In this document: in pieces, positions 5,882 to 35,019 of the stretch
How the letters are laid out: each line of letters opens with the position of its first letter
Numbering within the stretch: the stretch's first letter is position 1
Source: Streptococcus sp. HSISM1
GTDB taxonomy: Bacteria > Bacillota > Bacilli > Lactobacillales > Streptococcaceae
Assembly (NCBI RefSeq): GCF_000448565.1
Contig: NZ_CM002128.1
Location: 1,783,253 to 1,819,510 of the forward strand
Direction: 5' to 3'
DNA: 36,258 nucleotides
Notes under the pieces: model-generated
What the model was told of the DNA's origin: nothing
The model's database searches: none
Seen by the model: only the letters and a program-made list of their open reading frames with translations
Program-made: the position numbers and the translations under genes

Positions 5882-6243
5882 ATGAATTACAAATTATTTG
5901 ATGATTTTATTACATTACAAGCAATCTTAAAAGAACTCGGTATTATACAGAGTGGTGGTGCAATCAAAGCCTTTCTTCAAGAAAAAGAAGTCTTTGTTAA
6001 TGGTGAATTAGAACAACGGAGAGGCCGTAAACTTCGTGTCAATGATCAAATTGACATTCCTGAACTGAGCATAACTATCACCATTCTTGAACCTTCTCAA
6101 GAAGAAATAGAAGAGCATCTTAAAGAGAAAGAAGAAAAGGAACGTGTTGCTAAACTTGTCAAGCAACTCAATCAACAACAAAAGAAACTACCGACAAAGA
6201 CTAACAAAAAGAAAAAGCAATTCGCTTTCCTGGTATCTCGTAA
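5882..6243 (+). CDS. yaaA: S4-domain protein YaaA, C-terminal frameshift
   Basis: Small S4-type RNA-binding protein encoded next to recF in many Firmicutes; exact role unclear. The S4 fold covers about residues 1-70 ([20 protein letters not shown]). As written, the frame runs on to 6280 (132 residues) with an odd tail after residue 109. One additional A in the run 6206-6210 gives the usual ending [11 protein letters not shown] and a stop at 6241-6243 that overlaps the recF ATG as TAATG, restoring a 120-residue protein and classic stop-start coupling. I give the restored end. The start is ATG at 5882 with AGAGGTG upstream. Confidence 0.85.
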
Positions 6244-7337
6244 TGTGGTTAAAACAATTATCCATTCAACATTTTCGTAATTATCAAGAACTTGAAGTCG
6301 AGTTTCATCCTGGATTAAATATTTTCCTAGGTCAAAATGCTCAAGGAAAGACCAATATTCTCGAATCAATTTATTTTCTAGCTTTAACCAGAAGTCATCG
6401 AACACGAAATGATAAAGATCTCATCTATTTTGAATCCACCGATTTTAAAGTTTCTGGTCAATTACAAAGAGAAACTGGTCCCCTTCCATTAGAAATTTCC
6501 TTGACACCAAAAGGTCGGATAACTAAGGTAAATCATTTGAAACAAGCCAAATTATCGAACTATATTGGCCATATGAATGTTGTCCTTTTTGCACCCGAAG
6601 ATTTGCAACTGATCAAAGGATCACCTGCAGGGCGTCGAAAGTTTATTGACATTGAATTAGGTCAGATGAAACCTCTCTATTTATCCGACTTATCTCAATA
6701 CAACCATGTACTGAAACAAAGAAACAGTTATCTAAAAAATTCGGAAAAAATTGATGCTACATTTTTGGAGGTCTTAGATTCACAACTAGCTAATTTTGGA
6801 AGTCGCGTCATCCATCATCGGCTTGAGTTTATTAAAAAATTAGAAGCTAAAGCAGAAGAAAAACACACTCGACTTTCTGACAACAAAGAAGACCTATCGA
6901 TTCAATATCAGTCAACTGTTTTTTCTGAAGAAGGAAATGATATAGAAGAGCAGTTTCTCTCTATGTTGGAAAAAAACCGTCAGAAGGATATTTTTAGGAA
7001 AACAACAAGTATTGGGCCTCACAGGGATGATTTGGCATTTTTTATCAATAATATGAATGCTACCTTTGGTAGTCAGGGCCAGCATCGAAGTGTTGTTCTC
7101 TCTCTAAAATTAGCAGAAATTGAATTGATGGAAGAAATCACAAGAGAAAAGCCTATTTTATTACTTGACGATGTCATGAGCGAACTTGACAATTATCGTC
7201 AACTTCAACTACTTGAAACCATCTCTAATAATATTCAAACATTTATTACAACGACCACTCTCGATCATTTAAAAGACCTGCCTGAAGAGTTGAAAATTTT
7301 CACTGTTCAAGCCGGTCATATCAAAACAGCATCTTGA
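6243..7337 (+). CDS. recF: DNA replication and repair protein RecF
   Basis: RecF acts with RecO and RecR to load RecA at single-strand gaps. The 364-residue protein has Walker A GQNAQGKT at 30-37, the ABC/SMC-type signature region around [18 protein letters not shown], and Walker [13 protein letters not shown] near the C-terminus. I chose ATG 6243 ([14 protein letters not shown]) because it matches the family N-terminus. An in-frame start at 6144 would add 33 residues of out-of-frame yaaA sequence. Co-transcribed with yaaA. Confidence 0.96.
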
Positions 7338-7365
7338 CAGAATTGTCAAGATGCTGTTATTTTTG
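7325..7365 (+). terminator. Terminator after recF, convergent with guaB
   Basis: A perfect 15-bp stem (7325-7339 with 7344-7358) and a 4-base loop overlap the recF stop codon, followed by a T-rich stretch. A strong rho-independent terminator for recF; it may also act on guaB transcripts arriving from the right. Confidence 0.9.
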
Positions 7366-7382
7366 TTTACAAATGTGTAAAT

Positions 7383-8885
<1,503 letters not shown>

Positions 8886-8919
8886 TTATTTGAGCAAGGC
8901 TCGAATTTTTATTGTTAAT

Positions 8920-8947
8920 ATCATACCATTCTATGGCAATTTGTCAA
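8920..8947 (-). promoter_or_regulatory. guaB promoter
   Basis: On the minus strand: -35 TTGACA (8942-8947), a 16-base spacer, and -10 TATGAT (8920-8925) preceded by TGG, so both a consensus -35 and an extended -10. Its strength fits a housekeeping purine gene. Confidence 0.85.
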
Positions 8948-9005
8948 TCATTTATTGGTAACTATCAATGAACGGTATAAAATGTTCGCTATTAATGAAG
9001 TCGTT

Positions 9006-10034
9006 TTATTTTTTAAAATAGGTAATTCCCATCGCAGATTTGACTTCATCCAATGTTTGAGCTGCTACATTTCGAGCACGTTCACTTCCTTTTTCAAGAA
9101 TAGAGTAGACTTCACCCATATCCTTTGCAAATTCAAGGCGTCTTTCACGAATTGGTCTTAATTCACGATCTAAAATTTCTAAAAGATATCGTTTGGTCTT
9201 TACATCACCAAGTCCACCACGTTGATAATGTTCTTTCATTTCTGCAATTTCAGCTGAATCTTCTGGACGGCCAAATACATCCAGGTAATGAAACACCATA
9301 TTGCCTTCGATTTTTCCTGGATCCTCTACTTTAATATGATCCGGATCGGTATACATACTCATCACTTTTTTCTTTAAAGTATCCGCATCATCAGCTAGGT
9401 AAATTCCATTATTCAATGATTTAGACATTTTAGCATTTCCATCTAAACCAGGTAAGCGCCCCGCTGCTTCATTTTCAGGATAAATTCCTTCCGGTTCCAC
9501 CAAAGTATCTGTGTTGTATGCATGATTAAAGGAACGAACAATCTCACGAGTTTGCTCAATCATAGGCTTTTGATCATTTCCTACTGGAACAAAATTCGCT
9601 TTAAATGCTGTGATATCGGCTGCTTGTGAAATAGGGTATACCAAAAATCCTGTTGGAATACTCTCACCAAAACCTTTTTGAGAAATCTCGGTTTTTACAG
9701 TTGGATTCCTTTCAAGTCGCGCCAAAGATACTAGATTCATGTAATACATGGTCAATTCCGCTAATTCAGGAATCTGACTTTGAATGAAAATCGTAACTTT
9801 TTCAGGATCTAGTCCAGCTGCCAGATAATCCAAAGCAACATTACCAATAGATTCTACAATCGTTTTTGGATCTTTTGCATGGTCTGTCAAAGCTTGCTGG
9901 TCTGCTAGGAAAACAAACATATTATACTCATCTTTATTTTGCAACAAGACGCGATTTTTTAAAGAACCAACATAGTGGCCAATATGGAGTTTTCCTGTCG
10001 GTCTATCTCCTGTCAGAATGATGGGTTTTGTCAT
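9006..10034 (-). CDS. trpS: Tryptophan--tRNA ligase
   Basis: Charges tRNA-Trp. The class I synthetase motifs are present: HIGH (residues 17-20 in [11 protein letters not shown]) and KMSKS (KMSKSLNN near residue 200). I chose ATG 10034 ([14 protein letters not shown]), with AAGGAGA five to six bases upstream, giving 341 residues; an upstream in-frame start at 10064 would add ten unsupported residues. Transcribed alone, ahead of guaB. I see no T-box leader in the short upstream region. Confidence 0.97.
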
Positions 10035-10062
10035 ACTCTTCTCCTTAATCGTTATCCCTATC

Positions 10063-10071
10063 ATTATAGCA
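10063..10071 (-). promoter_or_regulatory. trpS extended -10 promoter
   Basis: On the minus strand TGC-TATAAT, about 30 bases before the trpS start. There is no good -35, but a full extended -10. Confidence 0.6.
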
Positions 10072-10132
10072 CTTTCTAGTTGAAAATGTTAGTCTATCCT
10101 CTATGTTTGTAAGGAATTAACACTTTACTAAA

Positions 10133-10173
10133 CTGTCAATTTCGTTTACATCATTGTAAAAACAAATTGACAG
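10133..10173. repeat. 41-bp inverted repeat between trpS and the ABC-F gene
   Basis: Left arm CTGTCAATTT (10133-10142) pairs exactly with AAATTGACAG (10164-10173). Nested inside is TTTACA-TCAT-TGTAAA (10145-10160). It lies between the divergent trpS and ABC-F promoters. No T-tract follows on either strand, so an operator is more likely than a terminator. Confidence 0.6.
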
Positions 10174-10181
10174 TAAAAAAG

Positions 10182-10210
10182 TTGAATTTTCCCCTATTTT
10201 CTAGTAAAAT
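10182..10210 (+). promoter_or_regulatory. Promoter of the ABC-F gene
   Basis: -35 TTGAAT (10182-10187), a 17-base spacer and -10 TAAAAT (10205-10210), 30 bases before the TTG start codon. It begins 9 bases after the inverted repeat. Confidence 0.65.
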
Positions 10211-10239
10211 GAAGACATTATAGAAAGAGGAGAAAATCA

Positions 10240-11865
10240 TTGCTTACAGTATCAGACGTCTCACTACGTTTTAGTGATCGAAAATTGTTTGACGATGTCA
10301 ATATCAACTTTACAGAAGGAAATACATACGGTCTCATCGGTGCCAACGGTGCTGGAAAGTCAACCTTTTTAAAAATTTTAGCTGGAGATATTGAACCAAC
10401 AACTGGTCATATTTCTCTTGGCCCTGATGAACGTTTGTCTGTTTTGCGTCAAAATCACTTTGACTACGAAGACGAGCGGGTCATCGATGTTGTCATTATG
10501 GGAAATGAAAAGCTCTACAACATTATGAAAGAAAAAAATGCTATCTACATGAAAGAAGATTTCTCTGATGAAGATGGTGTCCGTGCAGCTGAACTTGAAG
10601 GTGAATTTGCCGAACTTGGTGGATGGGAAGCAGAAAGTGAAGCATCTCAATTGCTTCAAAATCTAAATATTTCAGAAGACCTTCATTATCAAACTATGAG
10701 CGAGTTAGCCAATGGGGATAAAGTGAAAGTTCTCTTAGCTAAAGCCCTTTTTGGTAAACCAGATGTCCTTCTTTTGGACGAGCCGACCAATGGATTGGAT
10801 ATTCAATCCATTACCTGGTTAGAAGATTTTCTGATTGATTTTGAAAATACGGTTATCGTTGTATCCCATGACCGCCACTTTTTGAATAAAGTCTGCACCC
10901 ATATGGCGGATCTCGACTTTGGAAAAATCAAACTTTACGTCGGGAACTATGATTTCTGGAAAGAATCTTCTGAACTTGCAGCAAAATTACAAGCAGATAG
11001 AAATGCAAAAGCTGAAGAAAAAATTAAACAATTACAAGAGTTTGTCGCACGTTTCTCAGCCAACGCTTCAAAATCAAAACAAGCAACTTCGCGTAAAAAA
11101 ATGCTTGACAAGATTGAACTTGAAGAAATTGTTCCATCTAGTCGGAAGTACCCATTCATCAACTTTAAGGCAGAACGAGAAATTGGTAACGATCTCTTGA
11201 CAGTTGAAAATCTTTCTGTCAAGATTGATGGAGAAACCATCCTTGACAATATCAGCTTTATCTTACGTCCTGGTGACAAAACCGCCCTTATCGGACAGAA
11301 CGATATTCAAACAACCGCTTTGATCCGTGCATTGATGGATGATATTGAATATGAAGGAACTGTCAAGTGGGGAGTTACAACTAGTCGATCATATCTACCA
11401 AAAGACAACAGTCGTGATTTTGCAGGTGGTGAAAGTATTCTCGATTGGCTTCGTCAATTTGCAAGTAAAGAAGAAGATGACAATACTTTCCTTCGTGGTT
11501 TCTTAGGACGTATGCTCTTTTCGGGTGACGAAGTTAACAAGTCTGTCAACGTCTTGTCAGGGGGAGAAAAAGTTCGTGTCATGTTGTCTAAATTGATGCT
11601 CCTCAAGTCAAATGTTCTTGTACTGGATGATCCAACCAATCACTTGGATTTGGAGTCTATCTCAAGTTTGAATGATGGATTGAAGAATTTTAAAGAATCG
11701 ATTATCTTTGCCAGCCATGACCACGAATTCATTCAAACACTCGCCAACCATATTATCGTTCTTTCAAAAAACGGCGTAATCGATCGTATTGATGAAACCT
11801 ATGATGAGTTTCTTGAAAATGAAGAAGTTCAAGCAAAAGTGAAAGAACTTTGGAGCCAATCATAA
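10240..11865 (+). CDS. ABC-F family ATPase, YkpA/YbiT type
   Basis: Soluble protein with two ABC domains and no membrane segments, as in ABC-F ribosome-associated translation factors. It closely resembles Bacillus YkpA/YbiT-type proteins in length (541 residues) and text. Domain 1 has Walker A GANGAGKST (about 33-41), a divergent signature LANGDK, and Walker B VLLLDEPTNGLD. Domain 2 has a non-canonical Walker A (GQNDIQTTAL, without the Gly-Lys pair), a canonical LSGGEK and Walker B VLVLDDPTNHLD, with Asp where Glu is usual. The loss in the domain 2 P-loop is, from memory, shared by this subfamily. The start is TTG at 10240 with GAGGAG seven bases upstream. Its precise ribosomal role is unknown. 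Confidence 0.93.
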   Translation: MLTVSDVSLRFSDRKLFDDVNINFTEGNTYGLIGANGAGKSTFLKILAGDIEPTTGHISLGPDERLSVLRQNHFDYEDERVIDVVIMGNEKLYNIMKEKNAIYMKEDFSDEDGVRAAELEGEFAELGGWEAESEASQLLQNLNISEDLHYQTMSELANGDKVKVLLAKALFGKPDVLLLDEPTNGLDIQSITWLEDFLIDFENTVIVVSHDRHFLNKVCTHMADLDFGKIKLYVGNYDFWKESSELAAKLQADRNAKAEEKIKQLQEFVARFSANASKSKQATSRKKMLDKIELEEIVPSSRKYPFINFKAEREIGNDLLTVENLSVKIDGETILDNISFILRPGDKTALIGQNDIQTTALIRALMDDIEYEGTVKWGVTTSRSYLPKDNSRDFAGGESILDWLRQFASKEEDDNTFLRGFLGRMLFSGDEVNKSVNVLSGGEKVRVMLSKLMLLKSNVLVLDDPTNHLDLESISSLNDGLKNFKESIIFASHDHEFIQTLANHIIVLSKNGVIDRIDETYDEFLENEEVQAKVKELWSQS

Positions 11866-11869
11866 AAAT

Positions 11870-11902
11870 AAAGAGCCCTGAAATCATTATTTCAGGCTCT
11901 TT
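11870..11902 (+). terminator. Hairpin after the ABC-F gene
   Basis: A 14-bp stem with one bulged C (11870-11884 with 11889-11902, loop CATT) four bases after the stop codon. It ends in only three T residues, so termination may be partial before the YfhO gene. Confidence 0.7.
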
Positions 11903-11914
11903 CAGTAGAAATAT

Positions 11915-14480
11915 ATGAATAAAACAAAGCTAAAAACATCCCTTTTTATAGTATCTTCTTTCCTGATTCCGGCTATCATGATGTTCTTTATTTACCTCTC
12001 ACAAGGAATCTACTGGAACAGTGATACATCCCCCTTATTAGGAGATGGTTATCATCAGTATGTCATTTTTGATACCACACTTCGAAATATTTTACACGGG
12101 ACAGATAGCCTATTTTACAGTTTTCAAAGTGGATTAGGCATTAATTTCTATGCACTCAGTAGTTATTATCTAGGAAGTTTCTTTTCTCCTCTTGTCTACT
12201 TCTTTAATGCACAATCCATGCCAGATGCTGTTTACCTCATCACTCTTCTTAAATTTGGAGCTATTGGCTTAAGCACTTATATTAGTTTACATGGAATGTT
12301 TTCTAAAATTCCTAGATCCCTGGTTCTTACCCTTTCAACATCATTTGCTCTTATGAGCTTTGCTATCAGCCAAATTGAAATAAAAACTTGGCTAGATGTT
12401 TTTATCCTAGCACCATTAATTCTTTATGGATTTAAAAAACTCATTTACAATGAGGGAGAGATTCTCTACTTTATCAGCTTAACCAGCTTGTTTATCCAAA
12501 ATTATTATTTTGGGTTTATGATGTCTATTTTTCTTATTTTATGGTACTTGACACAACTGTCATGGGACATCAAAGGAATTGGAAAACGCTTCTTTCATTT
12601 TGTGATTGTATCTCTTTTATCAGTTATAACAAGCCTTGTGATGTTATTTCCAACCTTCTTAGATTTACGCACTCATGGAGAAAGTTTTTCAAAGGTTGAC
12701 AGTATCTTTACAGAAAAAAGTTGGTATCTTGACGTATTTGCAAAAAATTTCATTGGAAGTTTTGACACTACTAAATATGGATCAATTCCAATGATCTACG
12801 TGGGATTATTTCCACTTCTTTTAGCGATTACCTTTTCTTTGTAAAGTCGATCAAGTTTCACGTGAAACTTTCTTACTTTATACTCTTGACCATTCTTATT
12901 TTGAGTTTTCGTTTTCAATTATTAGATCTCCTTTGGCAAGGTATGCACGCGCCGAATATGTTTCTTCATCGATACTCTTGGATCTTTTCTTTGACGATTA
13001 TTCTGATGGCAGGAGAAGTACTAAATCGAATAGAGGAGATCACTTGGATTCGTTTTAGTCTTGCTAATTTCCTCCTTATTCTAGGATTTGGAGCAACTGT
13101 CCTTTACAGCAGTCACTATAAATTTTTAGATGCTGTCAATTTTATTGTTACTTTTGAATTTTTAATTGCTTTCTATTTGGTCTGTTTAGGGTTTATCCTA
13201 AAAAAGATACCGCCTAGACTTTTCTATCTTTCGATCCTGTTTTTCTCCATCTTTGAATTATCGGTGAATAGTTATTATCAAATGGAAGGAATTGCGAATG
13301 AATGGGTATTTGCTTCTCGGTCATCCTACGAACGAGACTTAAAAGCCATCCAATCCTTAGTAAAAGAGAAGACAGACTCTAATTATCGGACTGAGATTTT
13401 ACAGCCACAAACGGGCAATGATAGCATGAAGTATGGTTATAATGGAATTTCTCAATTTTCATCTGTACGAAATACGGATGCTAGCTCGACATTGGACAAA
13501 CTAGGATTTAAATCTGAAGGAACCAACCTCAATCTTCGATACCAAAACAATTCTATTTTAATGGATAGTCTATTTGGTGTTCGCTATAATTTAAGCCAAC
13601 AACCTGTTCAAAAATTTGGATTTAAAGAGATTGCAACCAAAAATGGAGTCTCACTTTCAGAAAACGAATATGCCTTACCAATCGCCTTTCTGTCAGCAAA
13701 ACCTTATAAAAATACTTCCTTTACGAATTTGACACTGGATAATCAGACACGATTCATCCATCAAATCACAGATGAAAAATATAAATTTTATAAGAAATTA
13801 AATATTCTCTCGCCTACTTCACAAAATACTACATCTTCGTTGCAAACTGCAAAAATTGAAGAAGATAGTCATCTTTCCTACGCAAGTATTCAATATGAAG
13901 TAACGGTTCCTGCCCATAGCCAACTATATGTCAATGTTCCAAATTTACAATTTTCAAACGATGATCGAAAAGATATTGAAATCAGCTACAATGGACAGAC
14001 TCAACGCTATACCATTGATAATGCCTTTCCATTCTTTTCGATTGGCCATTTTGACACAGAGGAAACAGTTACTATTCGTATGAGTTTTCCAGAAAATTCG
14101 ACAGTCTCTTTTGATACACCAGAATTTTTTGCTCTGGATCTTGACCAATACACACAAGCTATCGCTAGCATTCGTCAGCAAGAAGTTGCTATTCACAAAA
14201 AGAAAACAAATTGGTAGCAGCCTATAACGCAAATAGAGACACTACCCTTATTTTTACACTCCCTTATGATAAAGGCTGGTCAGCTAAACAAAATGGAAAA
14301 CCTATCAAAATTCATCGCATCCAGAAAGGATTAATGGGAGTTCGTGTTTCAAAAGGATCCGGAACAGTCACCTTAACATTTGTTCCCCAAGGCTTCATTG
14401 AAGGACTCATTGCCTTTTTCGTTGGAATCATTCTCTTTTTCCTCTACGAATGGAGACAAATAAAAAGACGAAAAAGTTAA
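11915..14480 (+). pseudogene. yfhO: YfhO-family polytopic membrane protein, broken by two apparent frameshifts
   Basis: One large gene read in three consecutive pieces: 11915-12844, 12862-14217 (upstream extension open from about 12841) and 14211-14480. The first two pieces hold many hydrophobic helices, followed by a soluble extracytoplasmic part and a final C-terminal helix, the architecture of YfhO-type GT-C-like proteins. In Bacillus, YfhO has been tied to glycosylation of lipoteichoic acid; the substrate here is unknown. Adding one T in 12833-12840 and one A in 14197-14201 joins the pieces into about 855 residues (the joins read FFFVKSIKFHVKL and IHKKENKLVAAYN). Both breaks are in short homopolymers, so this is probably an intact gene with sequence errors. 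If real, it is a pseudogene. Confidence 0.85.
12854..12869. other. Candidate parS site inside yfhO
   Basis: AGTTTCACGTGAAACT contains the complete 14-bp palindromic core of parS. It encodes K-F-H-V-K-L in the YfhO frame, as the other site does in ecfA1. In pneumococcus a parS a few kb from comCDE lets ParB influence competence (literature); this site is about 2 kb beyond comE, in an equivalent place. Confidence 0.85.
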
Positions 14481-14513
14481 GGAATCTAACCATCGGTTCA
14501 CTTATAAATAAAA

Positions 14514-14543
14514 GGCTAGGATAGTCATTATCCTAGCCTTTTT
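14514..14543 (+). terminator. Terminator after yfhO
   Basis: A 10-bp stem (14514-14523 with 14529-14538), loop of five bases, followed by five T residues. A rho-independent terminator 33 bases after the yfhO stop. Confidence 0.88.
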
Positions 14544-14544
14544 C

Positions 14545-14570
14545 AAAACAAAAAAACACCCAAATGGGTG
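14545..14570 (-). terminator. Terminator of the tRNA-Glu/tRNA-Asn unit
   Basis: CACCC-AAAT-GGGTG (14557-14570) is followed, on the minus strand, by a run of T (A-rich 14545-14556). It lies 10 bases downstream of tRNA-Asn. Confidence 0.8.
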
Positions 14571-14579
14571 CTATACTAG

Positions 14580-14653
14580 CTCCGCCAGTAGGACTCGAAC
14601 CTACGACATCATGATTAACAGTCATGCGCTACTACCAACTGAGCTATGGCGGA
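14580..14653 (-). tRNA. tRNA-Asn (GTT)
   Basis: 74 bases fold as a cloverleaf: acceptor TCCGCCA with TGGCGGA plus discriminator G, anticodon loop CTGTTAA giving anticodon GTT, and T-arm GGTTCGAGTCC. CCA is not encoded. It follows tRNA-Glu in the same transcript. Confidence 0.95.
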
Positions 14654-14661
14654 ATGAGATA

Positions 14662-14733
14662 TAGTCCGTACGGGATTCGAACCCGTGTTACCGCCGTGAA
14701 AAGGCGGTGTCTTAACCCCTTGACCAACGGACC
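14662..14733 (-). tRNA. tRNA-Glu (TTC)
   Basis: 72 bases, acceptor GGTCCGT with ACGGACT, discriminator A, anticodon loop TTTTCAC giving TTC. Identical over all 72 bases to the plus-strand copy at 35111-35182. Transcribed with tRNA-Asn. Confidence 0.95.
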
Positions 14734-14759
14734 ATATATTCATTAACAGAACATATCCC

Positions 14760-14787
14760 ATTATATCAAAATTTAACTAATTGTCAA
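14760..14787 (-). promoter_or_regulatory. Promoter of the tRNA-Glu/tRNA-Asn unit
   Basis: On the minus strand: -35 TTGACA (14782-14787), a 16-base spacer and a perfect -10 TATAAT (14760-14765). The -35 overlaps the stop codon of comE, so the tRNAs could also be reached by comDE read-through. Confidence 0.85.
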
Positions 14788-15542
14788 GCACTAAATTCTA
14801 AATTTTGCTCTTCAATTAATTTTTTGGCACGTTTGATATTGCTTCTTGAGATTGGACAAGAATAGCCTTCTTTCAACAGTAGCTGTTTCTTTTTCTTATC
14901 CATTCCAATGATCATACTTCTATTCACGATAAAAGATTGATGGGGACTGAAATATCTCTCCTCCACATCTTTCTCCAAGACATCTGATAAACTTCCCGCA
15001 ATTTCTTTTTGAAAATTTTTCCCAACTAAGTTTAATTTATAAGCCGAACCAACAGTTTCAATATAAAGAATATCCTTAAATGGAATTTTTATCTTTTTAT
15101 CCTTAAAGTCATACTCAAAATAATCTGTCAAATCATCATTTCCAATTTGAATAGTCGTTAGGTACTCAATACACTCCTTAATTTTTAATCTAAATAAATC
15201 TTCATTCAAATTTTTATCAATAAAATCTAAGGCAGATACTTTATAACGATAGGTAATCGAAGCGAATTCTGATTTTGTAGTAATAAAAACAATAATGGCA
15301 TAAGGATTTGCTTCTCGTATTTTTTGAGCAATTTCCAGCCCACAATACTCATTGTCTTGGATATGAATATCTAGAAAATATAATTGGTGGATATCCGAAT
15401 GCTGGATATAATTTTCAAATTCCGAAATTTTACCGGTAGAAATCACTTCAAGTTTAATTTCTAATTCCTTAGCAATTTCTGCAATATGTTTTTCTACCCG
15501 TATCTGTTGAGAGAGCTCATCTTCTAATAAAAAAATCTTCAT
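14784..15542 (-). CDS. comE: LytTR-family response regulator, ComE-like
   Basis: Response regulator of 252 residues: an N-terminal receiver domain with phospho-acceptor Asp58 (YFLDIH) and acidic pocket LEDE at 6-9, and a C-terminal LytTR DNA-binding domain (about 140-250, including ILYIETVG and SPHQSFIVNRS). It closely parallels pneumococcal ComE, which, when phosphorylated by ComD, activates comCDE and comX. It overlaps comD by 4 bases (ATGA). Position between tRNA-Glu/Asn and tRNA-Arg is the canonical comCDE locus, which is the main reason for choosing comE over the related blpR. Confidence 0.88.
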   Translation of the reverse strand: MKIFLLEDELSQQIRVEKHIAEIAKELEIKLEVISTGKISEFENYIQHSDIHQLYFLDIHIQDNEYCGLEIAQKIREANPYAIIVFITTKSEFASITYRYKVSALDFIDKNLNEDLFRLKIKECIEYLTTIQIGNDDLTDYFEYDFKDKKIKIPFKDILYIETVGSAYKLNLVGKNFQKEIAGSLSDVLEKDVEERYFSPHQSFIVNRSMIIGMDKKKKQLLLKEGYSCPISRSNIKRAKKLIEEQNLEFSA

Positions 15543-16879
15543 TCTTGTTCGTATCCTCCAATCTTCAAAACTTGTAAAAAACGATTTCCTTGCAATTCTG
15601 TTTCTAAAAACATCGTTCCATAATTTGCTAAGATTTTTCTCACATTATTTAATCCTAGTCCTCTATTTTCTCCTTTTGTCGAATAGCCTTCTTCATATAT
15701 TTTTCTAATATCAAAAGTGATTTCATTTGTTGTATTATGAATCACTAAGTAAACAATTTTTGAAATAGAGAAAATAGCAATATGAACTTTCTTTTCTTCT
15801 GCTTCTTTTGAAGCTTCCAAAGCGTTTGTCACTAGAATCCCAACGATTCTCACGATATCTAATAAATCAACTGGTAGTTGCTCGATTGGTTCACTCGTTT
15901 CAAAGGTCATTTCTACCCCAGCATCTCTTGCATCCAACCAGCCTCGAATCAAAATACTTCGTAAAGCAGAATCTTTGATATTGACCAAGTTGAATCCTGA
16001 TAATGCTTCTGTATTGATCTCTTTATAACCTTTTTCCAATACTTCTCTATGGATTCTCTGTATTTCTGGAATATTTTCTTCCTCAATAGCTAATGACATA
16101 GAAATAACTAAATTTCCCAAATCGTGACGAAATCCCCTAACAATAGAATAGAGACTTTGAATTTCAGCCATATACCGACTCATTTGTTGCTCAGAAAATT
16201 CTTTATACTCCAGTTCTAAATTTTTACGATACTGATCTCGCTCGATTTTCATATGGAATAAGCTGACTACAAAAGAGAAAAAACAAATCGTTGCCAACAT
16301 ACTCCCAAAATTTTTATATTGCGCTTGTTCACTAATCCATAAAGCAAAATTAATCACTACAAATATAGCAAAATAGACACAGATGAGTCTCTTTAAATAT
16401 TTTTCAAATTCTTTCTCATAAAAAGGAGTGAAATCAAATTCAAATAGGTCAATTAACTTCAAAATGATTCCTAAAGAAATCAAACGAATGCACATATTGT
16501 AGACAATCGAGTAAGCTGCTACAACAGCATCCCCCAATACTGAAGAGACAATTATCGTCAGAAAAGTTGCTGTTCCTTCAACCGCTAAATAAGTAAAAAA
16601 AGAATAAAAAATGGCGCACAAGCGATTCGTCCGATTGGCATAATGATAATAAGGATATAAATAAACCGGCCATAAGAGCATATTTAAATCAGAGAGTCGA
16701 ATATTTGAAAATAAAGTCACATCTAAAAATACTAAGAGACTTTCAAAAAGAAGAACAAAGGTGCTCAGCAGAAAGATAAATGCAAATTGATGTTCCTGAT
16801 AGATTTTTTCGTCCACTAATGCAAACGTCAGAACAATGATCCCTCCCAAGAGAAAAGACAAGATTAATGACTGAATCAC
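15539..16879 (-). CDS. comD: Peptide-sensing histidine kinase, ComD-like
   Basis: Membrane histidine kinase of the HPK10 family, 446 residues. The N-terminal ~210 residues hold about six to seven hydrophobic helices (the peptide-sensing half), followed by a coiled stretch, the H-box RGFRHDLGN with phospho-His252, an asparagine box in ILVTNALEAS and the G-box RGLGLNNVRKIL. The start is GTG at 16879 with GGGAG five to seven bases upstream; no ATG is available nearby. The pheromone gene comC, normally immediately upstream, was not found. Specificity of the sensor is therefore unknown, and a Blp-type or other peptide cannot be excluded. Confidence 0.85.
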   Translation of the reverse strand: MIQSLILSFLLGGIIVLTFALVDEKIYQEHQFAFIFLLSTFVLLFESLLVFLDVTLFSNIRLSDLNMLLWPVYLYPYYHYANRTNRLCAIFYSFFTYLAVEGTATFLTIIVSSVLGDAVVAAYSIVYNMCIRLISLGIILKLIDLFEFDFTPFYEKEFEKYLKRLICVYFAIFVVINFALWISEQAQYKNFGSMLATICFFSFVVSLFHMKIERDQYRKNLELEYKEFSEQQMSRYMAEIQSLYSIVRGFRHDLGNLVISMSLAIEEENIPEIQRIHREVLEKGYKEINTEALSGFNLVNIKDSALRSILIRGWLDARDAGVEMTFETSEPIEQLPVDLLDIVRIVGILVTNALEASKEAEEKKVHIAIFSISKIVYLVIHNTTNEITFDIRKIYEEGYSTKGENRGLGLNNVRKILANYGTMFLETELQGNRFLQVLKIGGYEQE

Positions 16880-17220: not shown

Positions 17221-17227
17221 TCTCATT

Positions 17228-17301: not shown

Positions 17302-17312
17302 GAACTTACTTC

Positions 17313-20309: not shown

Positions 20310-21667
20310 GTGTCACAAGAAGAGCAATTTTGGTCTCGTTTTTTAGAATTAGCCCAATTACAACTAAAAGATAGTGCCTATGATTTTTTTGTCGCCGATT
20401 CAAAATTAGTCAAAATCGATGGAGAAACGGCTACTATTTATCTTGATGGAAATTATAAAGAATTATTTTGGGAAACAAATCTAAAAAATGCTTTGATCAC
20501 AGCCAGCTTTGAAGTCTACAATACAGATTTGAAGTTCCATTTCGTTTTTGAAGATACCGAAGAAATTCCTAGTAGTCATAGCGGTGAGAATAGGAGATTA
20601 TCTTCAGGTAGCTTAACAACCGAACCGTTACCTAAAATTGATACAGGTTTGAAATCAAAGTACACCTTTGATAATTTTGTGCAAGGGGATGGAAATATTT
20701 GGGCGAAAGCAGCAGCGCTTGCAGTTTCTGAAAATCTTGCAACAACATACAACCCTCTATTTATTTATGGTGGACCAGGGCTTGGAAAGACTCACCTATT
20801 GAACGCAATTGGAAATCAAATCCTAGAAAATATTCCAAATGCACGAGTTAAGTATGTCCCAGCAGAAACCTTTATTAATGAATTTTTAGAACACCTTCGA
20901 TTAGGAGAAATGAAGACGTTCAAGAATACCTATCGAAGTCTTGATCTCTTACTGATTGATGATATCCAGTCACTCGGTGGGAAAAAAGTCACGACTCAAG
21001 AGGAATTCTTTAATACCTTTAATGCCCTCCATAGCGACAACAAACAGATTGTTCTAACAAGCGATCGAAGTCCGGATCATTTAGATAGTCTTGAAGAGCG
21101 ACTGGTTACTCGTTTCAAATGGGGACTAACGCAAAATATAACACCACCTGATTTTGAAACTCGGATTGCCATCTTACGAAATAAAATTGAAGATCTAGAT
21201 TATATTTTTCCTAATGACACACTAGAATATCTAGCTGGTCAGTTTGATTCAAATGTCCGAGACTTAGAAGGTGCCTTAAATGATATTTCTTTAATGGCGA
21301 AGGTGAAAAAACTAAAAGAAATTACGATCGATGTTGCAGCTGAAGCTATTCGAGCTCGTAAAAACGATAATAGCAAGACGCTTGTCATCCCCATTGAAAA
21401 AATTCAGGAAGCAGTTGGAGCCTTTTATGGAGTCAGTGTAAAAGAAATCAAAGGTTCTCGAAGAGTTCAGAATATTGTCCTAGCACGACAAGTGGCCATG
21501 TATCTTTCAAGAGAGATGACGGACAACTCACTTCCTCGAATCGGAAAAGAATTCGGTGGAAAAGACCACACGACTGTCATTCATGCTTATGAAAAATTAA
21601 AAGTATGGTCGACACAGATGATAATCTACGACTCGAAATTCAAAGTATCAAGAAAAAGTTAAATTAA
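20310..21667 (+). CDS. dnaA: Replication initiator DnaA, apparent frameshift near the C-terminus
   Basis: Initiator ATPase that binds DnaA boxes and opens oriC. Domain I spans about 1-85, followed by a variable linker, the AAA+ domain with Walker A GGPGLGKT (154-161) and Walker B LLLIDDIQ, and domain IV with the signature [13 protein letters not shown]. As written the frame stops at 21662 (450 residues) with a tail [14 protein letters not shown] unlike any DnaA I know. One extra A in the run 21592-21596 gives [23 protein letters not shown], matching streptococcal DnaA, with stop at 21667. I give that end. The start is GTG 20310; AGGAGG lies 11 bases upstream, a long spacing, but no better start exists. 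Confidence 0.93.
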
Positions 21668-23700: not shown

Positions 23701-23833
23701 CTGAAAAACTCCTTTGTTCATTGTTAAATATAGTATATCATTTTTATCTTTTTAGAACGTTACAGTTTGATGAAAAAATCTAGTTTCAAAGGTCATGAAA
23801 TATTTTATTTTTCATTACTTGTCTTTTGAATTA

Positions 23834-23842
23834 TGTTATAAT
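23834..23842 (+). promoter_or_regulatory. ychF extended -10 promoter
   Basis: TGT-TATAAT 36 bases before the ychF start, a consensus extended -10 without a matching -35. Confidence 0.6.
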
Positions 23843-23878
23843 AAAAGAGATTGAAATTTGAACGGAGAAAAAAGAAAA

Positions 23879-24994: not shown

Positions 24995-25013
24995 GATAGT
25001 TAAAAAAATGTAA

Positions 25014-25041
25014 AGGTTGGAAAAAATATTTCCAACCCTTT
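25014..25041 (+). terminator. Terminator after ychF
   Basis: A 9-bp stem (25015-25023 with 25029-25037) followed by CTTTT. It lies 20 bases after ychF and ends 22 bases before pth. Confidence 0.8.
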
Positions 25042-25062
25042 TAGTGTTTTGAAAGGAAAGAG

Positions 25063-25632
25063 ATGACGAAATTAATTGTTGGATTGGGAAATCCAGGTGA
25101 TAAGTATTTTGAAACGAAACACAATGTAGGCTTTATGTTAGTTGATCAAATGGCAAAGTCTTTAAATCTTACTTTCTCCCATGATAAGATTTTTCAAGCT
25201 GATATCGCCTCAACATTTTTGAATGGAGAAAAGGTCTATTTTGTAAAGCCGACCACTTTCATGAATGAGAGTGGAAAAGCAGTCCATGCCCTTCTGACTT
25301 ATTATGGTCTGGATATTGAAGATCTTTTGGTTATTTACGATGATTTAGATATGGAAGTTGGTAAGATTCGTCTTCGAGCTAAAGGATCAGCTGGAGGTCA
25401 TAACGGAATCAAATCGATTATCAATCATATTGGAACTCAGACTTTTTATCGAATTAAGATTGGAATTGGAAGACCTAAGCAGGGCATGTCAGTTGTTCAT
25501 CATGTATTAGGAAAATTTGATAAAGGCGATTACATCACTATTCTACAAACAATCGATCGAGTAGAAGAAGCGGTTAACGATTACTTGGTAGAAGAAAATT
25601 TTGAAAGAAGCATGCAGAAATACAACGGGTAA
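25063..25632 (+). CDS. pth: Peptidyl-tRNA hydrolase
   Basis: Releases tRNA from peptidyl-tRNA that has dropped off the ribosome. 189 residues, with GLGNPG at 7-12, catalytic His20 in KHNVGF, Asn in TFMNESG and the DDLD acidic stretch near residue 95. The start is ATG 25063 with AAAGGAAAG. First gene of the long cluster ending with ftsH; mfd begins 4 bases after it. Confidence 0.97.
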
Positions 25633-25636
25633 GTAG

Positions 25637-28600: not shown

Positions 28601-29131
28601 TTGTTAGAAGAAGCTATTGCTAAGAAACAAGGCCAAGAGCATCGTCGGCAAAAGAGCAATGCAGAGTTGAACCTTCAAATAGATGCGTATTTACCTAATG
28701 AATATATTTCAGATCAACGTCAAAAAATTGAAATTTACAAACAAATTCGTGAAATGAATTCTACAACGGACTATGAATACTTGCAAGATGAATTGATTGA
28801 TCGTTTTGGAGAATACCCAGATGTTGTGGCCTATCTACTTGAAATTGGTTTAGTGAAAGCTTACTTAGATCAAGTCTTTGTCCGTCTTGTTGAGAGAAAA
28901 CAACAAAAAGTGACAGTGAAATTTGAACCTATTGCCAAACAACTGTTTTTAACACAGGATTATTTCAAAGCTCTGTCAATGACACAGTTGAAGGCACAGA
29001 TTGCAGAAGAAAAGGGATTGATTGAAGTGATCTTTGATATTCGAAACAAGAAAGATTTTGAAATTTTAGAAGCTCTGAAGCAATTTGGTCAAACCTTATT
29101 GGAAATTAAACAGGAAAAAGAAGAGAACTAG
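25637..29131 (+). CDS. mfd: Transcription-repair coupling factor Mfd
   Basis: Displaces RNA polymerase stalled at DNA lesions and recruits UvrA. 1164 residues, intact. The N-terminal UvrB-like region carries GEFSLRGDILDIF, the RNA polymerase interaction domain begins near YVVHQVHGIGQYLG, and the RecG-like translocase has Walker A GDVGFGKT (639-646), motif II DEEQ (about 739-742) and motif VI QLRGRVGRS. The C-terminal domain follows. The start is ATG 25637, 4 bases after pth. Confidence 0.97.
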   Translation: MNVIDLVSQNSNLLSWQQGLQKNNRELILGLSATTKAIVMASAFDSIEKAVLITSSYNEAERLASDFIALLGEEKVHTFLGDDNPLAEFVFASQERQFARLEALNFLCQEDRQGILVTNVSGIKLLLPSPKVFASSIFQLKVGQEIDLTTLSETLQKIGYQKVSQVLQQGEFSLRGDILDIFEIDQLQPYRIEFFGDEIDGIRIFDPESQRSVENVEEVQLKAVSDLLLQEEDFIRGQQQIEQLQEQSANEEFKSYLAEILGDISQRKLHPDLRKFISFFYKKQYTLFDYLPKHTPVFLDDYQKIADQIARFELDTANLLTEDLHKNRASSRQVYFADTSTTLRKYTPATYFSNFQKGLGNLKFDHLYQFNQYPMQEFFGQFDLLKEEIERYRKSNYTVIVQATSHHNLQQLHKNLEEYGIRLDYIDGDTIIPQASQLVVGGLAHGFQFVDEKIVYITESEIYQKKIKRKIRRQNISNAERLKNYNELEKGDYVVHQVHGIGQYLGIETIEISGVHRDYVSIQYQNGDRISIPVDQIQMLSKYVASDGKTPKINKLNDGRFQKTKQKVQTQVEDIADDLIKLYAERSQLEGFAYSQDDENQEAFEQDFPYIETDDQLRSIEEIKKDMESNRPMDRLLVGDVGFGKTEVAMRAAFKAVNDHKQVAVLVPTTVLAQQHYANFKERFESFAVEVAVLSRFQSKAEQKETLEKLKKGRVDIIIGTHRLLSKDVVFSDLGLIVIDEEQRFGVKHKETLKELKKKVDVLTLTATPIPRTLHMSMLGIRDLSVIETPPTNRYPVQTFVLETNPTIIRDAVLREMDRGGQAYYLYNKVDTIEQKVSELKELISEASIGFVHGQMSEVRLENTLLDFINGEYDVLVTTTIIETGVDIPNANTLFIENADHMGLSTLYQLRGRVGRSNRIAYAYLMYRPDKSLTEVSEKRLEAIKGFTELGSGFKIAMRDLSIRGAGNILGASQSGFIDSVGFEMYSQLLEEAIAKKQGQEHRRQKSNAELNLQIDAYLPNEYISDQRQKIEIYKQIREMNSTTDYEYLQDELIDRFGEYPDVVAYLLEIGLVKAYLDQVFVRLVERKQQKVTVKFEPIAKQLFLTQDYFKALSMTQLKAQIAEEKGLIEVIFDIRNKKDFEILEALKQFGQTLLEIKQEKEEN

Positions 29132-29139
29132 CAGTTCTC
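29123..29139 (+). terminator. Weak hairpin at the end of mfd
   Basis: GAGAACT-AGC-AGTTCTC overlaps the mfd stop codon; only a short T-stretch follows several bases later. Possibly a partial terminator. A possible extended -10 (TGA-TACAAT, 29171-29179) lies before rqcP. Confidence 0.4.
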
Positions 29140-29199
29140 AGCTCATTTTTCGCATTTTATGTATAAAAAATGATACAATACTATGTTAGAGGTGACAGT

Positions 29200-29465
29200 A
29201 TGAGATTAGATAAATATTTAAAAGTTTCTCGCATTATTAAGCGTCGCCCTGTTGCAAAGGAAGTTGCAGATAAAGGGCGGATCAAAGTTAATGGAGTATT
29301 AGCCAAAAGTTCAACGGATTTGAAAGTGAATGATCAAATTGAAGTTCGTTTTGGAAATAAAGTATTGACGGTTAAAGTCTTGGAAATGTTGGATAGTACA
29401 AAAAAGAAGATGCATCCAAAATGTACGAAATAATTAGTGAAACAAGGATAGAAGAAGATGCCTAA
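29200..29465 (+). CDS. rqcP: S4-domain ribosome quality-control protein RqcP (Hsp15-like), C-terminal frameshift
   Basis: Small S4 RNA-binding protein of the Hsp15/YabO family, which in Firmicutes works with RqcH in adding alanine tails on obstructed 50S subunits. The S4 domain is clear ([24 protein letters not shown]). As written it stops at 29433 (77 residues from ATG 29200) after a tail KKMHPKCTK. One more A in 29400-29405 gives [16 protein letters not shown] and a stop at 29463-29465, overlapping the divIC start by 8 bases and restoring 88 residues, the usual streptococcal length. I give the restored end. AGAGGTGA precedes ATG 29200. Confidence 0.9.
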
Positions 29466-29826
29466 AAATATCGTTCAAATGAACAATAAATATATCAAAG
29501 ACGAAAGTCAGCGAAAACGTTTTTTAGAAGAAGAAAGAAAAAAACGCAATCGTTTTCTGGGGCTCGTTTTGATATTGGTCATGTTATTGTTTATTCTTCC
29601 AACTTATAATTTAGCCCAGAGCTATCAATCGCTACAAGATAAAAAAGAACAATACAAACAGTTGGAAAAAGAGTATAAAGAAACAAGTGAACAAAAAGAA
29701 TACCAACAAGACATCGCTAAAAAATTAAAAGACGATGATTATGCAACAAAATATGCACGCGCTAAGTATTCTTTTTCAAAAGATGGTGAATATGTTTATA
29801 CCATCCCAGATTTACTCCCCCAATAA
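29458..29826 (+). CDS. divIC: Septum formation protein DivIC (FtsB-like)
   Basis: Bitopic membrane protein of the divisome that pairs with FtsL and DivIB/FtsQ. 122 residues: a basic cytoplasmic tail, one transmembrane helix at about 34-53 (GLVLILVMLLFILPTYNLA), an extracellular coiled coil (about 54-90, rich in Lys/Glu/Gln) and a conserved end YARAKYSFSKDGEYVYTIPDLL. The start is ATG 29458, overlapping the restored rqcP stop. A typical neighbour of mfd and rqcP in streptococci. Confidence 0.95.
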   Translation: MPKNIVQMNNKYIKDESQRKRFLEEERKKRNRFLGLVLILVMLLFILPTYNLAQSYQSLQDKKEQYKQLEKEYKETSEQKEYQQDIAKKLKDDDYATKYARAKYSFSKDGEYVYTIPDLLPQ

Positions 29827-29829
29827 CCG

Positions 29830-29958
29830 ATGGAAAATATCTTACAAACAGTTAAACAATTCCTTGAATTTTCGGATGAAAAATTAGAGGAATTAAAAAA
29901 GAAAAACCAAATGATTAAACTTCAAAAGGATGAAAAGGAAAGGAATACAGGTGTCTAA
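29830..29958 (+). CDS. Small conserved hypothetical protein (42 residues)
   Basis: An ATG-started frame, MENILQTVKQFLEFSDEKL then a Lys/Glu-rich helix ending ERNTGV. It starts 3 bases after the divIC stop and its stop overlaps the GTG start of the next gene by 8 bases. A similarly sized protein of similar composition occupies this place in pneumococcus (recollection). Highly charged, likely helical, no known function. Tight packing between neighbours supports it as real. Confidence 0.7.
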   Translation: MENILQTVKQFLEFSDEKLEELKKKNQMIKLQKDEKERNTGV

Positions 29959-31215
29959 ACGATTTCTGCTCCTATTGTTAGTTCCAATTTTATTTATTGG
30001 GTCTCAAGCAGCGAGTATCGAGCAGTCTGAGTCTTCTCAGACAATGGCTCATCCATCAGAACTTTATTTTTCTTCAATTCCAGCGAACCCGAATGTCTAT
30101 CGCAAAATTTCTGTTTTTTCTGATCCTCAGTTGAAAAAAGCAAAAGGAGAAATTCTTCCCAACACACCGTTTACAATCGAACAACTCTTTGTAAATGATG
30201 AAGGGAAAGCTGTATTTAAAATAGTAGATAAAGGATATGTATTAGCAGATTCTTCTGTCATTTTTTCTGATGTTGTACAAGAAACACAAGAAAAAAACAA
30301 GACATGTGGCTAAAACCTGGTTTTAAAGTGTATGACCGACCCTTAATAAATGGTGCAAAAGAAAAAAATACACCTCTTTCTCCTTATACAAAAGTGACAG
30401 TCTTACGTACAGCTAAGACTTTACGAGATGAATTTGTGGAGATTGAAGGTCAGGGCTGGGTGAACAAACCATTCGTTACTGAAAAAGATAATCGAATGGA
30501 AAAAGTCCAGGACTTGTTAAATAGTAAATACAATTCTCCTTCGTATGGAATCTATGTAAAACAATTAGAGACTGGAAATACTGCTGGAATCAATCCGCAA
30601 AAAGAAATGTATTCTGCCAGTGTAACGAAATTACCATACTTGTACTACGTCCAAGAACAGCTCAATAAAAAAGCCATTTCTCCAACTACAACCTACAAAT
30701 ATATTCCAGAAGTCAATGATTTCAAAGGTGGCTATGAACCAGAAGGAAGTGGTAGCCTTTCAAAAACACCAGATGGAAAAGAATATAGTGTTCAAGAGTT
30801 GGTAGATAAAATTGCAAAAGAATCAGATAATGTTGGACATAATATCTTGAATTATTATGTCACTCATCAATCAGATCAAGACTTCCAAAAAACTTTGGAT
30901 AAAATTGCAAAGAAACATTGGGATGTTGAAAAAAGAGAAGCATCCGCTGAAATGGCTGGCAATGTCATGGAGGCTGTCTATCAACAAAATGGCTCTATTA
31001 TTGATGCACTCTCCTCTACAAAATATGATGATCAACGGATTGCGCGTGACCTTCCAGTAAAAGTTGCTCATAAAATTGGAGATGCCTATGATTTTAGACA
31101 TGATGTTGCGATTGTATACACAAATTCACCCTATGTACTAGTCGTTTTTACAGATCATTCGAATTATGATACGATTTCCAACATTTCAAAGGATATCTAT
31201 GAGGTATTGAAATAA
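29951..31215 (+). pseudogene. Secreted class A beta-lactamase-like serine hydrolase, split by an apparent frameshift
   Basis: Read in two frames, 29951-30313 and 30304-31215. Joined by one extra A in 30291-30297 (QEKKQDMWLKPGF), it is about 421 residues: an N-terminal signal segment (RFLLLLLVPILFIG), an SH3-like region, and a penicillin-recognising serine hydrolase domain with SxxK (SVTK, 224-227), SDN (292-294) and KIG (375-377). The active-site motifs are intact, so the enzyme would be functional if the frame is whole. The role is probably in cell-wall metabolism; true beta-lactamase activity is not implied. I prefer GTG 29951 as start (AAAGGAA upstream) over ATG 29930. It ends TAATG with tilS. 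Confidence 0.85.
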
Positions 31216-32489
31216 TGGAAAAGCGATTTTTAGAGTTTTGTGAAAAACAAGATCTATTTACTCCCCATCGCCGTGTTTTAGTTGCCTTATCTGGTGGATT
31301 GGATTCAATGAATCTGTATGAACTTTTATATAAGAATAAAGAACGATTGAAAATCCATCTGGTACTCGCTCATATCAATCATGGACAAAGACCAGAATCA
31401 GATTTAGAAGAAAGTGAACTTCGAACGCTAGCTGATAGGCGAGAGACACGTATTCATGTGGCTCACTATTCGGGTGATTTTACGGAAGCAAAAGCTCGTA
31501 CCTTTCGTTATGATTTTTTTAAACAGATTATGGAGAAAGAAGATTGCACTGCTTTAGTAACAGGTCATCATGCAAATGATCAAGCTGAAACAACTTTCAT
31601 GCGCTTGATACGAGGAACAAAATTACGCCATTTAAGTGGCATTCCTGTACGCCAACCATTTGGCAAGGGTGAGCTAATCCGTCCTTTGTTAATTTTTACC
31701 AAAGATGAGTTGATGGAAATCCCTCACTTTGAAGATAGTAGCAATGACTCACAGGACTATTTCCGAAATCGTGTACGCCATCAATACCTTCCTGAATTTG
31801 AAAAAGAAAATCCTCAAATGCAAGCAAGTCTTCGTTATTTAGCAGAGGAAGTGACTCATTGGCACCAAGCCCTGAAAGAATTGACTAGCGAGTTAAGTAT
31901 TCAAGATTTAGCTTCTTTTAGAACGTATTCTGATTCTGTACAATCATTCTTATTAGAAGAGTATTTGGCACAATTTCCAGATTTGCAACTTGGTAGGGTA
32001 CAGTTTCAAGAATTATTAGATTTACTGCGAAAAAAAAGAAATTGCGTTCATTATTTAAAGTCGAATTATGAACTACATCAAGAATATGATTTCTTTGAAA
32101 TACAAAAAATCAGTCAAAAGTCGGATGACCAACCCCTCCCATTTTTGTTAGAATTTGGGAATATTTTTGAAATTGCAAATTATAAACTATCTTTTGGACA
32201 ACCATTAGTAGGGGAAAATGTAGAAATTCTTTCTGTTTCACGCGAAACTCCCATCTTAATTAGAAGGAGAAAGGAAGGAGATCAGCTGCTTGTTAATGGC
32301 CACCATCAAAAATTAAGGCGGTGGTTTATCAACCATAAAATTCCAATTTCTCTTCGGCAAAAGGCTCTCATTATAGAACAGAATCATAATATTCTTTCTG
32401 TAGTGGGATTGGTAACGAGTGATTTGAGTAAGCCCTCAAAAAGTGGTATAATGAAAGATGATCTTTATGTTCAAAAAATAGATAGGTAA
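31215..32489 (+). CDS. tilS: tRNA(Ile)-lysidine synthase TilS
   Basis: Converts C34 of tRNA-Ile(CAU) to lysidine using lysine and ATP, an essential decoding step. 424 residues, with PP-loop SGGLDS at 26-31, a [10 protein letters not shown] motif near 115-125, and a C-terminal substrate-binding domain. The start is ATG 31215, sharing TAATG with the serine hydrolase. hpt follows 4 bases later, the standard arrangement. A degenerate parS-like sequence lies inside at 32234-32249. Confidence 0.96.
32234..32249. other. Degenerate parS-like sequence in tilS
   Basis: TGTTTCACGCGAAACT differs from the parS core by one base at the centre (CGCG for CGTG) and from the full consensus by two. On the right side of the origin. 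Binding by ParB is uncertain. Confidence 0.35.
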
Positions 32490-32493
32490 AAAC

Positions 32494-33036
32494 ATGTTAG
32501 AAAAAGATATAAAAAAAGTATTGGTTTCACATGATGAAATTGTAGAAGCAGCAAAGAAATTGGGGGAAACCCTAACAAAAGAGTACCAAGGAAAAAATCC
32601 AATTTTTGTTGGAATTTTGAAAGGCTCTGTTCCATTTATGGCAGAGTTGATCAACCACGTGGATACACATATTGAATTGGATTTTATGCTGGTTTCAAGT
32701 TATCATGGTGGTACAGCAAGCTCAGGTATTATTAATATTATCAAGGATATCGACCAAGATATTACTGGTAGAGATATTTTATTTGTAGAAGATATTATCG
32801 ATACAGGTAAAACCCTCAAGAGTCTAAAAGAACTCTTTGAAGAACGAAATGCAGGATCTGTGAAGATTGCTACCTTACTGGATAAACCTGAAGGACGTTT
32901 GGTTGAGATTGAAGCAGATTATACCTGCTTTACGATTCCAAATGAGTTTGTTGTAGGATATGGTTTAGACTATGATGAAAATTATCGTAACCTACCCTAT
33001 GTTGGTGTATTAAAAGAGGAAGTGTACTCAAAATAG
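32494..33036 (+). CDS. hpt: Hypoxanthine phosphoribosyltransferase
   Basis: Purine salvage enzyme converting hypoxanthine (and guanine) with PRPP to IMP/GMP. 180 residues, with the PRPP motif [11 protein letters not shown] (about 97-107) and the flexible loop [11 protein letters not shown] near 68-78. The start is ATG 32494, 4 bases after tilS; ribosome site weak. ftsH begins 10 bases downstream. Confidence 0.96.
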
Positions 33037-33046
33037 AGGAGACTAG

Positions 33047-35019
33047 ATGAATAACAGAAAAATAACGGTTTTGTTCGAAATCCATTTCTGTATTTGTTGA
33101 TTATTGTAGCGGCTGTGACAGGGTTCCAGTACTTTTTTGCGGGTAATGGAGTTGGTCAAAGTCAGCAAATCAACTACACAGAATTGGTCAAAGAAATTAA
33201 AAATGATAATGTAAAAACGATCAGTTACCAACCAAATGGTAGTGTGATTGAAATTGCAGGGACCTATAATAAAGCTAAAGAATCAAAAGATGATACAGGA
33301 ATTCAATTTTTTACCCCAAGTGTTCAAAAAGTATCTCGCTTTACTAGTGTCATCCTTCCATCTGACATCACTGTCAATGAATTACAAAAATTAGCAGCTG
33401 ACCACAAAGCGGAAATCACTATCAAACGTGAAAGCTCAAGTGGCATGTGGATAACCATTCTGACTTCAATTGTTCCATTTGTTATCGTCATGTTCTTCTT
33501 CTTCTCAATGATGAACCAAGGCGGTGGCGGAGGTGCCCGCGGTGCCATGAACTTTGGTCGTAATAAAGCCCGCGCTGCTAATAAAGAAGATATTAAAGTT
33601 CGTTTTTCAGATGTAGCAGGAGCTGAAGAAGAAAAACAAGAACTTGTTGAAGTTGTTGAATTTTTAAAAGATCCAAAACGCTTTACTAAATTGGGTGCAA
33701 GAATCCCAGCAGGTGTGCTTCTTGAAGGCCCTCCCGGAACTGGTAAAACCCTTTTAGCAAAAGCAGTAGCTGGTGAAGCTGGAGTGCCATTCTTCAGTAT
33801 TTCTGGTTCTGACTTCGTTGAAATGTTTGTCGGAGTCGGCGCTAGCCGGGTTCGTTCACTTTTTGAAGATGCTAAAAAAGCAGCACCAGCCATTATCTTT
33901 ATCGATGAAATTGATGCTGTTGGGCGCCAACGTGGTGTAGGTCTTGGTGGCGGAAATGATGAACGTGAACAAACCCTTAACCAGCTCTTGATTGAGATGG
34001 ATGGTTTTGAAGGCAACGAAGGAATCATTGTTATCGCAGCAACTAACCGTTCTGATGTCCTTGACCCTGCCCTTCTTCGTCCTGGCCGTTTTGACCGTAA
34101 AGTATTGGTTGGACGTCCAGATGTGAAAGGTCGTGAGGCAATTCTTCGTGTTCATGCTAAGAATAAGCCACTTGCTCAAGATGTGGACTTGAAATTGGTT
34201 GCTCAACAAACACCAGGATTTGTCGGTGCTGATCTCGAAAATGTTTTGAACGAAGCAGCCTTGGTTGCAGCTCGTCGAAATAAAAAAGTAATTGATGCTG
34301 CTGATATCGATGAAGCAGAAGATCGTGTTATTGCAGGTCCATCTAAGAAAGATCGGACGATTTCACAAAAAGAACGTGAAATGGTTGCTTATCACGAAGC
34401 TGGTCATACAATTGTTGGTCTGGTCTTATCAAATGCTCGTGTAGTTCATAAAGTTACGATTGTTCCACGTGGTCGTGCAGGCGGTTACATGATTGCCCTT
34501 CCTAAAGAAGATCAAATGTTACTTTCTAAAGAAGATATGAAAGAACAATTAGCTGGGCTCATGGGAGGACGTGTTGCCGAAGAAATTATTTTCAATTCGC
34601 AAACAACGGGTGCTTCAAATGACTTTGAACAAGCTACCCAAATGGCGCGTGCAATGGTGACAGAATATGGTATGAGTGAAAAACTTGGACCGGTCCAATA
34701 TGAAGGAAATCATGCAATGTTTGGTGCTCAAAGTCCACAAAAAATGATTTCAGAACGAACAGCTTACGAAATTGATGAAGAAGTTCGTAGTCTGTTGAAT
34801 GAAGCCCGTAATAAAGCGGCAGAAATTATTCAAGGAAATAGAGAAACGCATAAATTAATTGCGGAAGCTCTATTAAAATATGAAACCTTGGATAGTGTTC
34901 AAATTAAATCATTATATGAAACAGGAAAAATGCCTGAAAATTCAGAGCATGAATTAGAAGAAGAAGCAAAACCTCTATCATATGATGAGATTAAGTCAAA
35001 ATTAGAAGAAAATAACTAA
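33047..35019 (+). pseudogene. ftsH: ATP-dependent zinc metalloprotease FtsH, apparent frameshift at codon 5-6
   Basis: Membrane AAA+ protease for quality control. From ATG 33047 (GAGGAG upstream) the frame as written gives [13 protein letters not shown] and stops. One extra A in 33058-33062 gives [18 protein letters not shown] and continues to 35019, about 657 residues. In that numbering: first transmembrane helix about 13-28, extracellular loop, second helix about 136-155, Walker A GPPGTGKT 228-235, Walker B IIFIDEID, second region of homology ending GRFDRK, zinc motif HEAGH 450-454. A shorter product from TTG 33094 is possible but would lose part of the first helix. Given FtsH's importance, sequence error is likelier than a true pseudogene. 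Confidence 0.9.

Follow-up and report, generated by a model that had tools for sequence, protein, structure and literature searches.

Do seven frame breaks in six neighbouring genes, dnaA and ftsH among them, tell us about a streptococcus or about the way in which its genome was read? The question is raised by the window analysed here, a stretch of 36,258 bases (bases 1783253-1819510) on the single 2,334,492-base contig of the Streptococcus sp. HSISM1 assembly. Comparison with related genomes makes it very probable that all seven breaks are consensus errors, in which homopolymers of A or T were called one base short, and that the organism's own genes are most likely intact. Several Streptococcus parasanguinis strains have a dnaN product 100% identical to the one encoded in the window, and its recF shares 96-98% identity with that of five genus mates; judged by these identities, the genome is S. 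parasanguinis-like.

Seven one-base losses in six plus-strand genes

The six broken genes are the following.

5882..6280, plus strand: yaaA, encoding an S4-domain protein and adjoining recF; A-run break at 6206-6210, with about the last dozen residues changed.
11915..14480, plus strand: yfhO, in three pieces in three frames; breaks at 12833 and 14203.
20310..21662, plus strand: dnaA; A-run break at 21592-21596, with about the last 24 residues changed.
29170..29433, plus strand: rqcP-like S4-domain gene in two frames; A-run break at 29400-29405, with about the last 20 residues changed.
29930..31215, plus strand: serine hydrolase of a beta-lactamase-fold family; A-run break at 30291-30297, splitting the gene near residue 122 of 428.
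33047..35019, plus strand: ftsH; A-run break at 33058-33062, within codons 4-6 after the ATG at 33047.

The first-pass annotation of this DNA had described seven single-base losses in A/T runs of these genes and had called for a comparison with related Streptococcus genomes. All seven are present, leaving runs of 4-7 bases, and no S. parasanguinis-type locus that covers a site has the loss. The window was aligned to 20 such loci, 11 of them named and nine being stretches from five genomes; three of the five duplicate named genomes, so that distinct genomes are fewer than loci. This assembly differs from every covering locus at the sites in yaaA (5 of 5 loci, representing at most 5 distinct genomes), yfhO (14 of 14 and at most 11 genomes at the first site, and the same at the second, where the aligner put one difference two bases on), dnaA (15 of 15, at most 12, with one difference shifted to the following run), rqcP (15 of 15, at most 12, with four placed one base off), the serine hydrolase (15 of 15, at most 12) and ftsH (4 of 4, at most 4). 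One position had to be corrected: the second yfhO break, originally put at 14197-14201, aligns instead to the A run that starts at 14203. The remaining differences in the window that are private or nearly private to this assembly are either non-coding (8960-8980 and 14495) or common to two strains (23868).

The identity of most of the genes is supported by profile matches. The YaaA protein of a relative matches TIGR02988 YaaA_near_RecF with 93.4 bits (cut-off 84.75), the 855-residue YfhO protein of a relative matches PF09586 YfhO with 835.3 bits, and DnaA, 450 residues long, scores 495.9 bits against TIGR00362 in a match covering residues 8-431. The rqcP-like protein of a relative matches PF01479 S4 with 39.5 bits, the name rqcP being the first-pass label and backed by no search. 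In the serine hydrolase, the PF13354 Beta-lactamase2 match (147.1 bits) falls within the downstream piece, 30304-31215, and so the domain is intact and the break lies upstream of it; against the class A beta-lactamase profile the score is 48.9 bits, far under the cut-off of 200. The 657-residue FtsH of a relative, which starts at the corresponding ATG, matches TIGR01241 FtsH with 843.8 bits, and residues 4-657 form a single frame in the window.

Only the breaks in yfhO and the serine hydrolase lie far from a gene end, those in yaaA, dnaA and rqcP being at the C-terminus and that in ftsH at the very start. At the DnaA C-terminus, compared with four relatives, one 14-residue stretch is still retained. 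Seven natural mutations of a single type, touching dnaA and ftsH, had been judged improbable at the outset. That judgement stands overall, although the part of it that leaned on dnaA and ftsH is weakened, as only the ends of these genes are touched. A stronger essential-gene case is offered by dnaE, encoding the alpha subunit of DNA polymerase III, which is broken twice in mid-gene elsewhere on the contig.

Losses across the contig

Ten 20 kb stretches were sampled elsewhere on the contig, and seven of them were compared with three relatives, G038, G030 and G094. All three relatives cover 111,017 bases in common, a figure that takes in the window; loci of a further genome, G086, were excluded from the counts. 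Coding and non-coding labels were assigned mechanically from open frames. Over these bases 19 of the private one-base losses of this assembly carry the coding label and 8 the non-coding one, and there are 5 gains. The coding losses private to the relatives number 1 in G038, 0 in G030 and 4 in G094, and of the four in G094 two share one divergent spot beside a two-base loss and one sits beside a gain. Non-coding losses private to the relatives number 2, 6 and 4, respectively. Of the seven stretches compared, only L108 is without coding losses of this assembly. The losses hit genes of both strands, and 16 of the 19 sit in A/T runs of at least 5 bases, the length being that of the run in the relatives.

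The losses rise steeply with run length. A/T runs are shorter in this assembly at 11 of 1546 runs of 5 bases (~0.7%), 17 of 545 of 6 (~3%), 39 of 166 of 7 (~23%) and 9 of 15 of 8 (~60%), fractions that are pooled over three pairwise comparisons sharing this assembly and that include natural non-coding variation. Run lengths were counted by alignment, an exact-flank comparison having been discarded because it retained too few sites. Against the three relatives, runs are shorter here in 27, 23 and 28 cases and longer in 4, 7 and 6, counts to which sign tests were applied. Among the G/C runs of at least 3 bases that passed the flank filter none is shorter here; one G-run loss (L106:9528) lies outside the filter.

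The sharpest contrast comes from coding sequence. Counted against G038 and deduplicated since the loci overlap (the figure before deduplication was 18 of 641), 17 of 601 coding-labelled A/T runs of at least 5 bases are shorter here and 1 is longer, against 0 of 626 changed in the G030 control and 0 of 616 in the G094 control (P ~5e-6 each). The losses in this assembly thus appear blind to selection. Selection predicts that run length should vary outside genes only, and this is what the controls show, whereas here it varies inside genes as well.

The assembly has a completeness of 95.65, whereas 28 of 29 single-contig genus mates reach 99-100, and this too is in keeping with homopolymer undercalling. 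That undercalling is the simplest reading, as first proposed from the sequence of the window, is borne out by losses that are private, exceed the gains, rise with run length and occur across the contig, inside genes of both strands. A/T runs would have been shortened by one base at base-calling or during consensus building, and the probable source would be long reads without sufficient short-read polishing; we infer both the platform type and a cause in the sequencing rather than in the cell. Homopolymers are described as hard for both long-read platforms, and assemblies made without careful correction as leading to many spurious truncated protein predictions, in the statements of one review on these points (PMC7006217). 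Among the papers listed by a literature search for a nanopore genome of S. parasanguinis, none is by title a genome announcement for that species, and a search directed at homopolymers in nanopore data for Streptococcus yielded no paper.

Points that weigh against undercalling

Several observations sit less comfortably with a simple, uniform error. Non-coding A/T runs are shorter in 11 of 150 cases here and in 8 of 137 and 9 of 148 in the controls; these numbers are small, but the absence of a surplus among non-coding runs counts against such an error because added error should raise the non-coding count. Control pairs can be uneven as well: when G038 and G030 are compared, G038 has the shorter run 2 times and G030 10 times, and the corresponding figures for G038 and G094 are 2 and 11. 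Three of the 19 coding losses, that of polA among them, lie outside A/T runs of at least 5 bases, and about three of the 19 coding labels are doubtful (pfkA, L109:8669 and L113:8548). All of these weigh against the undercalling reading. On the other side, the pair G030 and G094 is near even (shorter in 10 and 9 runs), and the runs that differ in the uneven control pairs include no coding A/T runs of at least 5 bases.

The doubtful labels are of different kinds. The loss at L109:8669 falls in a short frame that matches no family, and that at L113:8548 brings no clear frame change. The A-run loss at L105:4505 is just upstream of the likely start of pfkA, and pfkA was dropped as evidence of a broken gene. 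The rqcP site, conversely, was labelled non-coding by the mechanical procedure.

The gene for DNA polymerase I, polA, is broken once, elsewhere on the contig. The break (L112:9895) adjoins a G run with neighbouring substitutions rather than a long A/T run, and for this reason another type of error, or a genuine change, may be involved there.

Strand pattern

The minus-strand genes of the window yielded no private one-base difference, although no relative extends over its bases 1-653. The first-pass observation that these genes are unbroken therefore holds in the window; it fails as a general pattern, since minus-strand genes are broken in stretches L106, L109 and L110. From the error rates, which derive partly from the window itself, ~7 losses are expected in its plus-strand genes and ~2.5 in its minus-strand genes, and 7 and 0 were seen; the calculation used 9/1541 rather than 11/1546 for 5-base runs, which lowers the expectations by <0.2. 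With so few minus-strand losses expected, and minus-strand genes broken elsewhere, the plus-only pattern is compatible with chance. Strand-specific damage was rejected, the pattern being a local sampling effect.

Alternative explanations

The alternative that survives best is a mixed one, in which one or two of the seven breaks (yfhO and the serine hydrolase would be candidates) are genuine pseudogene mutations amid many errors. Strains do lose dispensable genes, and at any one site the consensus sequence alone does not distinguish an error from a mutation. The number of plus-strand losses in the window is nevertheless what the (partly window-derived) error rate predicts, and the two controls show no change in coding-labelled A/T runs of at least 5 bases, so that we regard this explanation as unlikely.

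A lineage deficient in mismatch repair might have gathered genuine one-base homopolymer losses as a mutator. Replication slippage increases with run length, and the losses do the same. The mutS gene, however, is an open frame of 851 amino acids both in this genome and in G038, and no internal stop interrupts mutL, whose match extends over positions 1-554 of 555. Divergence from the relatives is 3.5-3.6%, against 3.5-4.0% among the relatives themselves, and there is thus no sign of a long branch. The excess of losses over gains also tells against a mutator, and dnaE is essential, so that two breaks within it should be lethal. With both repair genes open and divergence ordinary, a mutator is highly unlikely. 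Very little weight can likewise be given to the broader possibility that the strain truly has some of the short runs, and either tolerates them by slippage or belongs to a lineage in decay whose replication genes are damaged.

Slippage of polymerase or ribosome on the run could in principle bring a share of the product of a genuinely broken gene back into frame, as has been proposed for Blochmannia, an ant endosymbiont, in a study that stresses tracts of at least 9 bases in extremely AT-rich genomes (PMC3017870); insertions during transcription are reported to increase exponentially with run length (PMC5574713). This is the least credible explanation, as the runs in the window have only 4-7 bases, every covering relative is intact at the seven sites, and yfhO and dnaE would need two corrections each.

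Undercalling of A/T homopolymers accordingly remains the preferred reading, under which the locus is almost certainly biologically ordinary and its breaks reveal nothing new about the bacterium. The practical consequence is larger. At the sampled rate of 19 coding-labelled losses (about three of them doubtful) per 111,017 bases, the 2.33 Mb contig may contain ~350-400 false frame breaks, if the rate holds, and pseudogene counts, claims of gene loss and pangenome comparisons based on it would be wrong.

Other observations on the contig and its relatives

Two further features were noted during the comparison. Strain P430801 (L009, L102) appears to be without ~1.29 kb that corresponds to window positions 15197-16483. 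On the minus strand this segment covers portions of a pair formed by a response regulator and a histidine kinase; the pair resembles AgrA/AgrC below the cut-off and, from its place between tRNA genes, looks like comDE. A dispersed repeat of ~185 bases lies at L108:7522-7710. Among the matches listed, it occurs in at least dozens of places in relatives; in the eleven sequences of this assembly that were searched it has seven places, one of them partial, none being in the window. Against Rfam it gives a weak match to S35 (29.8 bits, gathering score 69).

Comparison with known systems

The pattern resembles the homopolymer indel errors known from bacterial genomes assembled from long reads in its one-base A/T losses that rise with run length, in its frameshifts scattered over conserved genes and in its lowered completeness. 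It departs from what is expected of such errors in showing no visible non-coding excess. A likeness can also be drawn to the homopolymer frameshifts of ant endosymbionts, as presented in the Blochmannia work (PMC3017870), where breaks again fall in A/T runs and include replication genes. The endosymbiont frameshifts, however, belong to long tracts in extremely AT-rich genomes, whereas those described here are found in short runs of a streptococcus whose covering relatives all retain intact genes.
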